64,000 nt of DNA from Paramacrobiotus metropolitanus (lineage: Eukaryota; Tardigrada; Eutardigrada; Parachela; Macrobiotidae), in contig NW_026570224.1 in assembly GCF_019649055.1 (NCBI RefSeq), forward strand, positions 2,108,001-2,172,000. Direction: 5' to 3'. Position 1 is the first letter of the stretch. Each line of letters begins with the position of its first letter. Below the pieces are notes generated by a model. It was given only the letters and a program-made list of their open reading frames with translations, did no database searches and had not been told where the DNA came from. This document shows positions 33,322-59,909 of this stretch, one piece after another. The position numbers and the translations under genes are program-made.

Positions 33322-33730
33322 GCAGTGCTGCAGACCAATTTTTCCACATTGGCCAACTTCAAGTAACGACAATTAACGACCCCCAGGGGTACCATCAAGA
33401 AAGACGCTGCAAAAATATTTCCTTGTAAATTTGCCTGCAAGTTATTCTCTGTGAATCTGTGACAGTTTGCTTGATCTATAACTTCCACATAGCTTGATGG
33501 TTTGCCCGATCTTTCTTCTTCCTTCTTCCGTTTGCATATACGCTTTCTTCTTCCTTCTGCATGTACGTCCTCAAACAGTGCGCATTTTTATATGTTACAC
33601 AATTTATTATGCGCTATCAACAATCAAAGCAAAGAAATTCTGTACTTATAACAATACACATCGGGGGACGATTTTGTGAATCACTATAGCATATGCGAAT
33701 CCACGAAGCATATTACGTAAAGGCGTAAAT

Positions 33731-34675
33731 TTATGTAGGTTCACCGTAAGAAACACCCGGAGTACTTTCTGTGATGAGGTGTATTTCCGCTTCCGCGTGC
33801 AACAATTGCCGGCACGCTTTTTGAAATTCCTGCTGCATTTCTACCAACTGGTCTTGAGGATAACCTCCAAGAACTTCCGCCATAAAACAAACATCGCGAG
33901 ACGAGTCCTGAATCAGTCCTTCTTTCGACTGTCTCCAATTGATGTGCCGGGTCACCACCGTGGATCCCGATGCATATACGACCTCACCAAGCGGCACAGC
34001 GACGCTGGCATCCGCGTCCAAGGCCGTAAACTGATCGCCATTCTGAGAGAAGCGCAGCTGCAGATCCTGGCTGGTCGGCGCATTCAGATCGAAGCCACCA
34101 AAGGGCAGGAGATACTTGAGAGAAAAAGCGTTGTACAGGTCAACCAAAGGATTAATCGAGTGCGGTAGCGTGTCCGCTCTGGCCGCGCGCTTCGCCATGC
34201 TCTCCACTGAACTGACGTATTTCTTCGTGGATACATTCAGTGCGGTAAACGCATTCCGCCACAACTGGATGTGCGGATGGCTATGCACGTTGGGATGACC
34301 GGATACTTGTGCGTGAGCAGTCTTCCAAGCTTGTTCGAGCATTGTCTTAATGCCTTCGTGATCAATGCGTTCCAGGTCGATTTGGCGAACACAAGCAAAA
34401 AATACCGTTAATTTGGGAAGAGCCAAGAAGACTTTGTTTTCCACTGTGAAATTGTAACTCTTTCCCAGAAGCGAACTGAAAAAAATATTATGAGCGCGGG
34501 GAGCTAGTACGTAAATGTCTGCACTTAGGATTGGTTCTCGAAATGGTAGCACGCGCTAAGATTTCTTATTGCATCCAGCGATATTCTGGATTTCCTTTGC
34601 TGGTTTCAGTTATTTCCTGCGCAGTCAACCGAAAGCTTACACGAATAAGACTTGTGTCATTCTGACAAAACACAT
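33731..34675 (-). CDS. Stand-alone B3/4 (PheRS-beta-type editing) domain protein
   Basis: Predicted 259-aa protein. The last exon, 34475-33731, is firm. The first exon, 34675-34641 (start MCFVRMTQVLF), is tentative but has a good donor (GT|GTAAGC) and closes the phase. The protein is the solo B3/4 family (COG3382 type), related to the B3/B4 editing domain of bacterial phenylalanyl-tRNA synthetase beta. It shows FTVENKVFLALPKLTVFFAC at the start, HPHIQLWRNAF, then INPLVDLYNAFSLKYLLPFG, GEVVYASGSTVVTRHINWRQ and a C-terminal helix. In PheRS this fold hydrolyses mischarged tRNA. The solo proteins are common in bacteria and their substrates are poorly known, so a role in tRNA quality control is inference. 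It lies 267 bp downstream of the LysRS stop on the same strand. Codon use looks like that of its neighbours. Confidence 0.82.
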
Positions 34676-34941
34676 CCTGGCTGGCACAAACGAGCCCAGC
34701 TTATTTAATTACAGGAATAAAAGTTTTCCGTGTTATTTCGTATACGACTGCTTCTTAAACAGTTATTCGTCATATCGTATGGCATGGTTTGAATTTATTT
34801 AATATCAAGCTAGTAAGTCTATCCCACCACAGCAATTTACTGCATTATACCAGAAAACAGTATAAAAATCCAGAATATCGTTATCCGATGCCAAGAAATC
34901 GCCAAGCAAACAACTGCTACGAAAAAGTCAAACACTCCCGT

Positions 34942-37900
34942 TTACCGGTGTTCAGCTGGTTTCTCTGGCTTCTTAGCTGGAGCATCTCCAGTTGCAGTTA
35001 CTCTCGGCTGGTCTTCCTGTAAACCGTGCACGTGTCAGTAGCATCAGCCACGAAAACAATAATTAAAGATAATTAGCCAATATCTGGTCATACCGTTCCC
35101 TCAATGACGTCAGTTTTTCCATCCCACGGCCGCATAGCCGGGAAAAATAAGACCTCCTGTAAATGCAACAAGTACACATACGGTATACCATACGAGCGAG
35201 CCATAAATGCAATGGAATGATTTTACCTTAATATTATGGGAATTGGTCAGAAACATTGTCAATCTATCAATACCAATGCCCAATCCGGCCGTGGGAGGAA
35301 GACCATATTCCAAGGATGTGCAAAAATTCTCATCTATCATCTGAGACTCTTCGTCACCTTGTTCCTTTGCCTATATTAACATTGCCAAAATTACCAAAAT
35401 TCCCTTCAACAAAAGCCGTGGTAGGAAACACTTACTATTGCCTGTTCTTCGAAACGCTGGCGCTGCACAATAGGATCGTTTAATTCAGTGTAAGCATTGG
35501 TTAATTCCCGTGTTCCACAAAATGCTTCAAAACGTTCTGTCAGCCCGGGAATAGAGCGATGCGTCTTGGATAATGGACTCATAATGGCCGGATGGTCGCA
35601 TAAAAATGAGGGATTGATTAAATCCACTTCCACAAAATCCCCAACCAACTACCAAAAACAGAAAGATGTATACAGTGTCAGTGTTATAAATTGACTTTAA
35701 AATGTACAGTAAATACAAAATCTGAAGATTTGCAGCAATTACTGTAACACATTTTTGATCGAAGCGAGACCATTTACAAAAGAAATGATGCAGCATGCTC
35801 ACCTTATCCAAAAGGCGAGCAACCGTTCTAGGTGGAGGACACTCAACCTTATGCTTCACCGCTAGATCGTCGAGAATCTTCTGCGACTCGGCAGTATGTA
35901 TTTCTGTGGCCGGTGGCAACTTCACCCCGAGCTTCTTTTCCAGTTCAGCCATCATGGATACGCGCCTCCACGGCGGCGTGAAATCAATATTCATCGCTTC
36001 ACCTTCCGGTCCTTTTGGATGGTAAACGATCTTGTATCCACCGGTGATGTACTTAACAAGCCCTAAATATACGGCACGCATTAACGAAATGTCCTTAATA
36101 GTCGAATACTGGAACATATTGTTGCAACCGCACTTCTCACCTGATAGCATTTGCTCAACAAGTGCCATTAAATCATTGTAATCCGCGTAAGCCATGTACA
36201 TTTCACACATGGTAAACTCCGGATTGTGCGTCAGATCAATGCCTTCGTTGCGAAAATTGCGTCCAATCTCGTACACACGGTCAATACCTCCCACAACCAG
36301 CATCTATCAAATAAATAACATCGTGATTCCCATAAAAAATTTACTGAATTCCTCAAAATCTAAAGGAAGCACATAAGCTTTTTTCGTACCTTGAGATATA
36401 ATTCCGGCGCAACTCGCATAAACAAGTCCATGTTCAAATCATTATGGTGCGTAATAAACGGTTTAGCCGTAGCCCCACTGGATACCATGTTCATCATAGG
36501 AGTTTCAACTTCCAGAAATCCCAAGTTATTGAGGAATTCACGGACGTAATGAATGACCTTCGCCCGAGTGACGAACTTCTGTCGCACGTAGTCGTTCATA
36601 ATCAGATCCAGATAGCGCATACGATACCGTGTTTCCTATGTTAAAATGGTTGGCAAAATGAGTAAGTAACCATTTGGAAAAGTAATCAGTTGTGTAGTCG
36701 GTCTATTATTCAAAACCGAATCTGACCGTACGTACCTGATTACGCAATCCAAAATGCATACTGGGAAGCATTCGCAAACATGGCGTTAAAACTTCCATCC
36801 GTTGTGGGATGATGCTCAGTTCGCCTTTTTTACTTTTGCCTATTGAAACATTCCATAATTAATTAATACACAACAGTTTCCCGTGCCAGTTAGTGTCTCG
36901 TCACCGTTAAGACAGCTACGACCACAATACGTAAGTTGATCATACCAGGATATCCGACGCATCCGATAATATCACCACGTCGTATACGGTCATTTATCCC
37001 TTCGAATTCTTTTTCGTTTCCATAATACCTGCATAATCAACAGGTTTATCAACATACTATGGCAGAGACAATTTAAACAAATCCAGTAATAAAAAGCCTA
37101 CCGTGCATTGGCCAAAACTTGAATCTTTGTGCCTTCTCCACGAAGATCATAAAAAACCAATTTCGCTCCAGATTCTCTCTTAGAATGGACTCTTCCTAAG
37201 CAAAGAAATTGACTTTCGTAAATATTACGCAGCACCGCGGGAACATACGGAAATTATAAGCCATGCTTCAAGCATTTACCGTCATAAGCCGCACATACAC
37301 TCATTTTATGAAAACAAAGCGTATTAAAAGCCACACCCACCCAATTAAACAGAATTTATTGTCAGCGCTTTTCTATTTTTTTCCTAAGAAAGATTATATA
37401 TATTCTTGATTCCATCCTCACCGGCGACGCTGACCAAATCAGATAATTGCTCGCCATCAGCAATATTTTTGAACTTTTCCACAAACTGCACGAGTGACGT
37501 GTCCACGTGGAACTTGTGCGGATATGGATTCTCTCCCGCAGATTTCATCGCAGCAAGCGTATCGACACGAAACTTGAAATATTCCTACAATAATAATAAT
37601 AATTCGTACAGCAACCACCATGGTAATTTGCCTTCGACTACGATAATTAAAGAAATAAAGGCACTCAAGGCCTTGAACTTACAACCAGCCTAAAATTTCT
37701 TATATTGTACACTGTGCAGTGTGTACAAATACGTAAGTAACTTTAATAGCTACGGGTAGCAAATTAGAATACAGGGACGGATTACAATAATGGTTCTGGT
37801 ACTCGTAAATTCCGCCCCACTTAAAACTGGATGTTGCTAATATTCAAGCCTTGTTCTTTCAAAGCTTTCTCGAACGTACGTCAGGATCGGTGGGGTCCAG

Positions 37901-38317
37901 AGGTTTCTGCACTCCCAAGGGAGAGAGGTCCCTTTCCTTTTTCTTAGCGGCTTCCGGTGCGCCAGAACCAGCCACTTTGTCTTCCTTTTCCTTCAGCTTT
38001 TGTGCTGCTTTCTGTTGACGCTTCAGTTCACTGAAAAATTTAAATCAAACCGTAAGCATCGTAAAATAAAATGTAACAGAGAACTAAAAAGGAGCAATGA
38101 CTGGCTGAGTCTGGCTCTGCAACAGTAGTGACAGACTGACAGTGATATGATCATAATTCATATCTATGAATAAATTACGCATTACGACTTGTCCGAAAAC
38201 CATTAGACTTCATCGAAGACTGCAGTTGCTATCACAAACTTGTTACTATTTGTGTCTTTTTTCATTTTTGCCAAAAATCACTTACTTCTTGCTCAGCTTC
38301 ACGTCTCCGTCTTCCAT
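34942..38317 (-). CDS. KARS1: Lysyl-tRNA synthetase (class IIb)
   Basis: Charges tRNA-Lys. 596 aa from 13 exons: 38317-38286, 38030-37880, 37584-37422, 37195-37102, 37028-36946, 36839-36736, 36635-36390, 36303-36141, 36062-35803, 35648-35436, 35370-35227, 35156-35094, 35016-34942. A Lys-rich N-terminal extension ([15 protein letters not shown]) precedes the OB-fold anticodon domain (residues ~75-210, with [20 protein letters not shown]). The catalytic core has motif 1 [10 protein letters not shown], motif 2 [19 protein letters not shown] and motif 3 [12 protein letters not shown]. The intron 36140-36063 is 78 nt, has no stop and is in frame; removing it restores the conserved [12 protein letters not shown] stretch. 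In animals this enzyme sits in the multisynthetase complex, usually also supplying mitochondria by alternative 5' exons, for which I see no targeting peptide here. The length matches cytosolic KARS (597 aa in human). Confidence 0.96.
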
Positions 38318-58069: not shown

Positions 58070-59909
58070 ATGGCTGCGAAGAAGATTGTGGATACCTTCA
58101 ACGAGATCGACAACGAGATGGTTTACGTGAAAAACAAACTGGACTCTATTGGCAGTGTGATCAGCAGCGGCCAACACTCAGACGTGTCGGCCGGTGCGCT
58201 GCAGAAACTGAAGGATGAAAACAAAGAGCTGCAGCGTCAGATGTTGGAGATCATGAAACAGATCGCCGTGTACGATCTCCTAGAAGGAAAGCCACCGTTG
58301 GCTCTTAAAGTTTTTCTCCAAAAAGAGGTACAGTTTCTGCGCTGGCTTCTCACAACAGGTTGAGAAAATTTCTGGGAATATTATTTTATGCTATAGAAAA
58401 CTAAATCCTCCAGCAACGAACCTCAGCCCGCTCCTCAAACCGTTGAAAAAACTGCGGAGGTACCGGAAGAGGTTTGTATTTGTGCTAATATGGCAGTACA
58501 TAGACGGAAATTCATCGAAATTCGTTTTTTTCAGTCTCCTGCTGAAAAATCAAAGAGCGGTTCCGCCAAAAAATTAAAAGGAGCGGAAGACAGCGCGAAA
58601 CCAGCCACTTCTCAATCTCAGACACCCTCAACCGAGGTAGTTTCCGATATTGAGTGCAGTGATAATTTTATTTTTTAAAGTGATAATTAAATGAAGTGCA
58701 ATGTTTTCCGACAGACTGAGAGTAAGGGAAAAAGCAATAAAGCCGATAAAAGCAAACAGGTACGGTACAGTATATCTTTTCTTATGTGTGCACGTTACCG
58801 TGTTCCATACAATTGTACATCGTTTATCTTTTGCAGCCGGCGAAGTCAGGTGACGGTGGAGATCAAAAACCTGAAGGCACAGCGTCATCCGATGATTCCG
58901 TCACCGTGGCTCGTTTGGATATGCGTGTAGGGAAAATTGTTGAAGTTGATAAGCACCCAGATGCGGATTCACTGTACGTGGAGAAGATCGATCTGGGTGA
59001 GGGGCAGCCGCGAACCATCGTCAGTGGACTGGTCAAGCATGTTCCCATTGAAGAAATGCGCAATCGATTGGTCATTGTCCTGTGCAATCTGAAACCGGCA
59101 AAAATGCGTGGCGTTACATCTGAAGGTTTGTCATACTGCTTATGGTGTTTAGATTAAAAATTAATCAGTCTTCTGAGACTTTTGTTTGAACACAATGTGA
59201 ATGCTGCTCGTGGCATGGACAGTTAAATATTTGCTTCCTGAAGTAGTTTATCAGAATAGTTCCTTTGCTTTTATCATTGATTGTTTTTTTCTTTATCATG
59301 TTCAATTGGGTTTGTTATAGTACATATCAGACCTGTGCAGTTATGGAAAATTCACCCAGAGTTAGAGTTAGGAGTTACTAGAAGCGTGGAAATTACGCTA
59401 CGAGTTACGCTATTCATAAAAGTAAACCGAGTTTCGAGTTACTCAGGGAATTACGCTACCATAGACAATACATACAATTTTTGTGCGGGTTACGCTAGAG
59501 TTAAGTTTTCGGGGGGACGAGTTACGCTACAGAGTTATATTATAACTCGAAAATAACTCGCGTTAAGTTAAATAGTTAAAAATAACTGCACAGGTCTGGT
59601 ACATATGTTGTAACGGTACATGTATCGACGGGTTGTGTTTCAGGAATGGTGATGTGTGCAAGCACTCCGGATAAAGTGGAACTTCTAATTCCTCCCAACG
59701 GCTCTCAGCCCGGTGATCGAGTCACCTTCGATGGATATCCCGGCACGCCTGATGACCAGCTAAACCCTAAAAAGAAAATTTGGGAGACGGTCGCTCCGGA
59801 TTTGACGGTAGATGCAAATAAAACCGCTATTTACAAAGGTGTCCCATTTAGTGTTGCTGGAAAAGGGATCGTTGTTTCACCATCTCTTGTGAATTGTCCA
59901 GTGAAGTAA
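58070..59909 (+). CDS. AIMP1: AIMP1 (p43), multisynthetase complex tRNA-binding protein
   Basis: Non-catalytic scaffold of the aminoacyl-tRNA synthetase complex; its C-terminal EMAPII-type OB fold binds tRNA. 344 aa from six exons: 58070-58327, 58397-58471, 58535-58636, 58715-58759, 58837-59125, 59644-59909. The N-terminal helix (residues ~1-80, [20 protein letters not shown]) mediates complex assembly. A Lys/Ser-rich linker (residues ~86-180) is encoded by three small exons. The tRNA-binding domain starts [20 protein letters not shown] and includes [19 protein letters not shown] and [19 protein letters not shown]. The end is the EMAPII extension ([20 protein letters not shown]). Intron 5 (59126-59643) contains a hAT-type element. 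A polyA signal lies at 59985-59990. Confidence 0.96.
59328..59598. mobile_element. Non-autonomous hAT-type DNA element (MITE)
   Basis: 271-bp element with 17-bp perfect terminal inverted repeats CAGACCTGTGCAGTTAT, flanked on both sides by the identical 8-bp target duplication GTACATAT (59320-59327 and 59599-59606). The CAG end and 8-bp duplication are hAT traits. The inside holds several copies of GAGTTACGCTA in variant spacing and no coding capacity. The intact ends and duplication suggest a fairly recent insertion into AIMP1 intron 5. Confidence 0.9.

Follow-up and report, generated by a model that had tools for sequence, protein, structure and literature searches.

A gene for a bacterial-type tRNA-editing domain directly behind lysyl-tRNA synthetase in a tardigrade

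CtdA (Hauth et al. 2023; PDB 9f7e and 9mkl) is an experimentally shown deacylase with a stand-alone B3/4 fold that clears canavanine from tRNA(Arg) without a synthetase, and canavanylation was likewise prevented by a B3/4 protein of C. perfringens that is only 35% identical to CtdA (excerpts of PMC10018355). According to the available sections of a review (PMC11415595), free deacylases need not match the synthetase of their kinship, the editing synthetases listed there include LysRS and neither TyrRS nor ArgRS, and LysRS errors are also cleared by free INS-family proteins. For LysRS itself, the accessible portion of PMC5370406 reports mischarging of tRNA(Lys) with Arg, Thr, Met and other amino acids, the Arg, Thr and Met forms not being deacylated, and places LysRS editing at the catalytic domain. 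The gene described here shares with CtdA the predicted B3/4 fold, the conserved R/D/N/P/E/R residues and a similar size, but it belongs to an animal, adjoins LysRS and encodes a protein only 24-25% identical to CtdA in the Foldseek alignment.

Exploring a window of 64,000 nucleotides from Paramacrobiotus metropolitanus (the whole stretch of DNA that was analysed), we found that the open frame at 33731-34555 on the minus strand encodes a B3/4 protein, as read from the frame listing and its translation. Its assignment to the B3/4 family, claimed in an earlier note made from the letters of the window, is borne out by a Pfam match to PF03483 (B3_4) that exceeds the cut-off of 29.3 with 71.1 bits (E 1.1e-19), and the NPLVDLYNA, GEVVYA and NWRQ blocks which that note had pointed out are all present within family-conserved stretches. 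The Pfam scan returned no second family at E<=1, leaving B3_4 as the only domain, and the NCBIfam scan returned no model at E<=1. Residues invariant across a 12-sequence alignment of the family are kept, among them R103, D119, N122, P131, E171, R183 and R188. AlphaFold modelled the exon-2 protein (248 residues; 28 aligned sequences) with a mean pLDDT of 93.9 and a pTM of 0.90, the first modelled strand starting at residue 8 with YNFTV. Judged by sequence and predicted fold, the window exon encodes a complete, intact-looking B3/4 domain of the CtdA / stand-alone B3/4 family.

Searching with the predicted model, Foldseek placed the two CtdA entries 9mkl and 9f7e on top (TM 0.81 by query, E ~3e-16), and the same entries were recovered by sequence with phmmer (E 2e-16 and 5e-16). 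Weaker matches came after these: PheRS-beta chains from bacteria and one from an archaeon (E 1e-7 to 1e-4), then human LRRC47 (1.3e-3) and human PheRS-beta (2.9e-3). Descent from the domains of the animal itself was considered and rejected: for PheRS-beta, no PheRS chain was matched by phmmer at E<=10 and the fold match is weak; for LRRC47, no LRR appeared in the Pfam scan and the fold match stays at the E value given above. The window protein thus has the B3/4 fold in common with the PheRS-beta editing domain and LRRC47 but carries neither an LRR nor other PheRS domains, and by sequence and model its domain is of the bacterial type and distinct from that of the animal's own PheRS-beta or LRRC47.

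The earlier note had also placed LysRS upstream on the same strand and held that the gene is not simple contamination, and both statements stood. The apparent LysRS stop (34942) lies 267 bp before the ATG at 34675 that the note proposed for the B3/4 gene, and LysRS is, by its sequence, of the animal type: with a 622-aa draft retaining a 78-base intron as query, the best PDB match was the human entry 6chd (806 bits), and 34 distinct LysRS sequences in PDB were matched at E<=1e-50. The gene has 12 introns of 65-295 bases. The 78-base intron, at 36063-36140 on the minus strand, is a multiple of three without an in-frame stop, so that its retention would add 26 residues. GC3 is 0.551 in the B3/4 exon, 0.473 in LysRS and 0.402-0.653 in seven in-frame pieces of other genes, a reference set that excludes the AIMP1 piece. 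Contamination is unlikely because an animal-type LysRS precedes the gene, the splice acceptor is good and GC3 is unremarkable. LysRS and AIMP1 are components of the multi-synthetase complex in animals, and elsewhere in the window, at about 58070-59906 on the plus strand, lies a gene with a coiled-coil N-terminus and a tRNA-binding C-terminal part that is presumably AIMP1-like. Other genes of the window are presumably, judged by their reading frames, a Rab5-like gene, an integrator subunit and a DDX18-like gene, among others.

Table 1. Features of the LysRS-B3/4 locus (positions in the window; a slash in a donor marks the exon-intron border).
Feature	Position	Strand	Basis
LysRS gene, 13 exons, 596 aa as separate protein	34942..38317	-	exon reconstruction
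Apparent LysRS stop, TAA	34942-34944	-	exon reconstruction
Candidate fusion intron, 470 bases, phase 2; LysRS exon 13 (35016-34946) to B3/4 exon in frame	34476..34945	-	donor profile, translation
Alternative 5' micro-exon ATGCA, in-phase donor 3.74	34841..34845	-	donor profile
Two overlapping hexamers, ATTAAA (from 34803) and AATAAA (from 34799), resembling poly(A) signals	34794..34803	-	hexamer scan
Further ATTAAA hexamer between the genes	begins 34709	-	hexamer scan
5' exon of the earlier note, MCFVRMTQVLF, doubtful; donor CGT/GTAAGC 2.34, below all 12 LysRS donors	34641..34675	-	donor profile
Splice acceptor AG of TTTTTTTCAG, score 7.16 (12 LysRS acceptors 1.55-11.85)	34476..34477	-	acceptor profile
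B3/4-domain coding exon including stop codon	33731..34475	-	translation, Pfam, AlphaFold, Foldseek
AATAAA about 120 bases past the B3/4 stop	33603..33608	-	hexamer scan

Since no ATG precedes the core of the domain in exon 2, an upstream exon is needed. The 259-aa model put forward in the earlier note, in which 34675-34641 is joined to 34475-33731 across a 165-bp phase-2 intron (GTAAGC..TTTTTTTCAG), was reproduced in translation, but its 5' exon is doubtful, given its poor donor; of the introns it mentioned in the plural, one is inferred and needed and a plurality is not. Donors were scored with a profile built from the 12 LysRS introns, whose true donors score 3.74-9.95 in leave-one-out. Three candidate donors (those of the exons ending at 34641 and 34841, and one at 34945) join the acceptor at 34475 in the same phase. 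In the gap that separates LysRS exon 13 from the B3/4 exon, the best-scoring of all donors is CCG/GTAAAC at 34945 (6.54), which overlaps the apparent LysRS stop. Among 3080 stop triplets on the same strand, 1.6% have a donor of at least that score starting one base before them. An unspliced phase-2 GTAA donor always reads NNG-TAA, and the first LysRS intron has the same pattern. The candidate fused frame would run to 843 aa, with LysRS followed by an Ala/Pro/Lys-rich linker and then B3/4, and the candidate fusion intron is longer than any of the 12 LysRS introns. The hexamers at 34803 and 34799 could end a LysRS-only mRNA, and LysRS-only and LysRS-B3/4 products may both be made. As candidates for what precedes the B3/4 domain, the exon of the earlier note is weak, and the 34945 donor and the ATGCA exon score better.

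Relatives were drawn from bacterial genomes, bacterial plasmids and one contig of a viral collection. Eleven plasmid proteins (from 173 plasmid records) are 22-28% identical to the window protein, and the scan of the bacterial genome collection covered the best 80 of 591 relatives, among sequences with one motif. Among the matches listed, the closest are solo proteins from the phyla of L013 and L041, at best ~40-42% identical over ~185-203 residues. By phylum, relatives occur in 38 of 301 genomes at E<=1e-10 (Chloroflexota, phylum of L013), 17 of 247 at E<=1e-10 (Acidobacteriota, L022), 8 of 246 at E<=1e-22 (Actinomycetota, L041, a Streptomyces), 13 of 92 at E<=1e-15 (Chlamydiota, L050), and, in the overlapping sets of the phyla of L014 and L015, 8 of 148 at E<=1e-15 and 10 of 198 at E<=1e-20. 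L013 (Thermomicrobiaceae) is taken by us as Chloroflexota, and Patescibacteria and Chloroflexota are GTDB names. The flanks of the closest solo relatives from bacteria, searched mostly over 1.5-3 kb, gave no LysRS, ArgRS or TyrRS in BLAST, and ten proteins scanned beside delta-type solo relatives included no synthetase, being regulators, oxidoreductases, ATP-synthase subunits and others. The frame upstream of one solo gene (L205:2178-3408), a putative GatB/YqeY protein, overlaps that gene with its end. A viral origin was rejected: three scans of viral_contigs gave no relative, a further one gave a single distant relative (L012), and no BFVD fold matched at E<=1e-3. Since the nearest relatives are only ~40-42% identical over ~185-200 aa, their sequences make it unlikely that any donor among those sampled passed the gene on recently; within a comparison set of bacteria, plasmids and viral contigs, the gene may go back either to an old horizontal transfer, as the earlier note suggested, or to vertical inheritance with losses.

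Furthermore, in some bacteria B3/4 domains are fused to synthetases. Fusion partners were identified with Pfam for 12 proteins and for the rest with BLAST, using a single query for each of LysRS, ArgRS and TyrRS, and the places examined number 34 in Patescibacteria, 5 in Dependentiae, 7 in Chlamydiota and 10 in Chloroflexota. In 379 patescibacterial genomes, 36 have a match at E<=1e-20, in 39 places, of which the 34 examined comprise eight B3/4-ArgRS fusions, four separate B3/4 frames adjoining or overlapping ArgRS (L145, L148, L149, L150), six domains after class II LysRS, two after class I LysRS, four B3/4-TyrRS fusions and ten that are solo or without an identified partner, some of them at contig ends. 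Matches were found in 14 of 101 Dependentiae genomes; at the five strong ones B3/4 precedes class II LysRS in three (L038/L113, L114, L115) and is solo in two, the nine weak genomes lying outside the examined set. Seven of ten Chlamydiota long frames were examined and all seven are LysRS fusions, with B3/4 first in five and last in two, whereby LysRS-B3/4 fusions occur in both domain orders in the surveyed bacteria. Nine of ten Chloroflexota long frames are B3/4-TyrRS (L169, L189-L196); in the tenth (L197:1191-3038, 616 aa), B3/4 is the C-terminal part and none of the three synthetase queries matched. The long frame of L217, also unmatched by the three queries, was rejected as a fusion and looks like chance read-through upstream of a solo gene. 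The fusion loci are L129-L158 and L199-L202 in Patescibacteria, L113-L115 in Dependentiae, L169 and L189-L196 in Chloroflexota and L218-L228 except L221 and L225-L227 in Chlamydiota, with some solo genes in these ranges. No mention of bacterial B3/4 fusions to LysRS, ArgRS or TyrRS was found in the accessible part of the literature, in which 'B3/4' does not work as a search term. Because LysRS of both unrelated classes was repeatedly chosen as partner, these sequences argue that some bacterial B3/4 domains serve tRNA(Lys).

Where the window protein falls among these domains was examined in three hand-picked subsets (an 82-row quick tree and trees of 77 and 72 rows) of 125 and later more gathered sequences, thinned mainly of Bacillota, Streptomyces and near-duplicates; L161, L174 and L183 were dropped as coming from the same genomes as L013, L022 and L014. 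The unrooted 72-row tree divides into two halves with 99/95 support. In one, of 32 rows, the window protein stands with solo rows and with every one of the 11 TyrRS-fused rows; the other, of 40 rows, takes in every row linked to LysRS or ArgRS, together with the rhizobial rows that resemble CtdA. Within its half, the window protein is sister to 11 solo rows (L013, L022, L159, L160, L164, L165, L175, L217, L225-L227) at 86/95, a moderate bootstrap. The unrooted 77-row tree likewise has a 32-row clade (99/97) with the window protein and the three TyrRS-fused rows of that tree, in which the window protein has no firm closest place. The class I LysRS fusions L152 and L158, included in the 82- and 77-row trees and left out of the 72-row tree, fall outside the clade of the window protein. 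Grouping the window protein with the three Dependentiae LysRS fusions was rejected (p-AU 0.0009), and descent from LysRS-fused bacterial B3/4 domains was discarded on that result and on their place in the other half of the 72-row tree. Two groupings named after the tree had been seen were not rejected, namely the window protein as sister to the rest of its clade (p-AU 0.226) and with nine solo rows (p-AU 0.429). Its end branch is long, at 1.47 and 1.22 changes per column in the 77- and 72-row trees. On the bacterial side, the search and tree proposed in the earlier note thus yielded solo relatives at the identity given above and a place in the TyrRS-linked half.

Position 186 of the 254-aa protein tells the halves apart better than any other column: it is V/I/T/A/M in 31 of 31 other Tyr-linked rows and Asn in 38 of 40 Lys/Arg-linked rows; the window protein has Asn. 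Over the ten most discriminating columns, the halves having been read off a tree that used the same columns, the window protein is Tyr-type at seven (193, 86, 135, 167, 182, 189, 168) and Lys/Arg-type at 186 and 93, and at 94 it matches neither half. Position 135, Phe in the window protein, is aromatic or His in 31 of 31 Tyr-linked rows and Glu/Asp in 27 of the 40 others. An aromatic 135 together with Asn186 occurs in 5 of the 71 other rows, four of which are fusions with LysRS ahead of B3/4 (L151, L156, L199, L200), the fifth being L002. A profile alignment to E. coli PheRS-beta (98% probability, 162 columns) sets 135 beside H265 and 186-189 beside G318; the mapping is usable at these positions and poor for E334 and A356, and no catalytic claim is drawn from it. 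We take H265, G318, E334 and A356 to be editing-site residues of PheRS-beta. In sequence, the window protein thus appears to be a Tyr-type background with one strongly Lys/Arg-type residue, Asn186, near the pocket.

Each group of bacterial relatives resembles the window protein in part. The clade of 11 solo proteins (Chloroflexota, Actinomycetota and Acidobacteriota phyla) reaches up to ~40-42% identity and has F or W at 135, but its members are bacterial and carry V, I or M at 186 where the window protein has Asn. Fusions with B3/4 after LysRS (Patescibacteria L131, L151, L156, L157, L199, L200; Chlamydiota L222, L224) have the same LysRS-then-B3/4 order, with Asn186 in 7 of 7 aligned rows (L157 left out) and an aromatic 135 in 4 of 7, but they stand in the other half of the tree and are single frames, whereas the window join needs a candidate splice. 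The Chloroflexota B3/4-TyrRS fusions fall in the family half of the window protein, but their B3/4 is N-terminal to TyrRS and the eight aligned rows have His135 and V or I at 186.

A role in tRNA quality control, suggested in the earlier note, is by homology the best reading, and the sequence makes it quite probable that the window domain has aminoacyl-tRNA deacylase activity. As the best explanation overall we propose, tentatively and at a little under an even chance, a deacylase that works with the adjoining LysRS on mischarged tRNA(Lys); that tRNA(Lys) is the main substrate is likewise a claim that falls slightly short of being probable. The domain is read as clearing mischarged tRNA(Lys) because of the CtdA precedent, the rule that free deacylases need not match the synthetase of their kinship, and the reports of LysRS mischarging. 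It could act with LysRS in two ways, forming the C-terminus of a spliced LysRS-B3/4 protein or being made separately, from its adjoining gene, as a partner. LysRS would gain post-transfer proofreading, as the CCA end of a mischarged tRNA(Lys) would move out of the synthetase active site into the pocket of B3/4 for hydrolysis. We infer catalysis from homology, and also the choice of tRNA(Lys) and the possible fused transcript; for tRNA(Lys) speak position, splice frame, bacterial precedent and Asn186, whereas the phylogeny points to tRNA(Tyr). For the link with LysRS speak its place as the next gene on the same strand, the in-frame 34945 donor, the bacterial LysRS-B3/4 precedents and Asn186; against it stand the TyrRS-linked half, the rejected grouping with the Dependentiae fusions, the seven of ten columns, the 470-base intron, the hexamers between the genes and the lack of a synthetase in the searched flanks of the nearest solo relatives. 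A more specific version, in which LysRS-B3/4 is made by splicing across the apparent LysRS stop and the domain, derived from a bacterial lineage linked to TyrRS, was shifted by Asn186 towards Lys-type substrates and converged on the patescibacterial and chlamydial fusions, seems to us possible but rather unlikely.

The phylogeny would be better served by a free trans-editing deacylase for mischarged tRNA(Tyr) (carrying, for example, Phe, DOPA or meta-tyrosine), with its own short 5' exon and an accidental LysRS adjacency. All 11 TyrRS-fused rows of the 72-row tree lie in the half of the window protein and no LysRS- or ArgRS-fused row does, the seven discriminating columns follow that half, TyrRS is the partner in Chloroflexota (nine of ten long frames) and in Patescibacteria (4 of 34 examined places), 135 carries an aromatic residue, like some rows of that half and like E. 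coli PheRS-beta with its F267, and TyrRS can take Phe (PMC11415595, available sections). Yet the nearest clade of 11 rows is entirely solo, with no TyrRS beside the members whose flanks were searched, Asn186 departs from the residues of all 31 other rows of the half, and a synthetase gene as neighbour is unlikely by chance, as estimated and not computed; we regard this reading as unlikely. That the protein is a canavanyl-tRNA(Arg) deacylase guarding the animal against dietary canavanine, the function of CtdA, we consider decidedly improbable: CtdA provides the closest solved structures, the C. perfringens protein extends its activity to a more distant B3/4 protein, and Asn186 is common to the window protein and the CtdA-like rows, but those rhizobial rows (L005 and L007, whose sequences we take as CtdA-like) belong to the opposite half at 99/95, which also led us to reject CtdA proper by grouping, and their Glu135 is replaced by Phe in the window protein. 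The long end branch and the unsettled 5' end would fit a domain that lacks deacylase activity, being a relict or turned to another use, or transcription of the gene otherwise than drawn here; with an intact frame, the conserved residues kept and a high-confidence fold, this too is improbable.

A gene for a bacterial-type tRNA-editing domain thus lies in an animal directly behind LysRS, an arrangement with a like in some bacteria, and the analysis adds to the earlier note a possible LysRS-B3/4 fusion, the bacterial LysRS, ArgRS and TyrRS fusions and the TyrRS-linked half of the family. If the reading with LysRS is true, the animal has acquired a proofreading module that may be absent from its relatives, and B3/4 modules serving LysRS, ArgRS and TyrRS in bacteria and LysRS in an animal would make proofreading a wider and directly testable field for three tRNAs.
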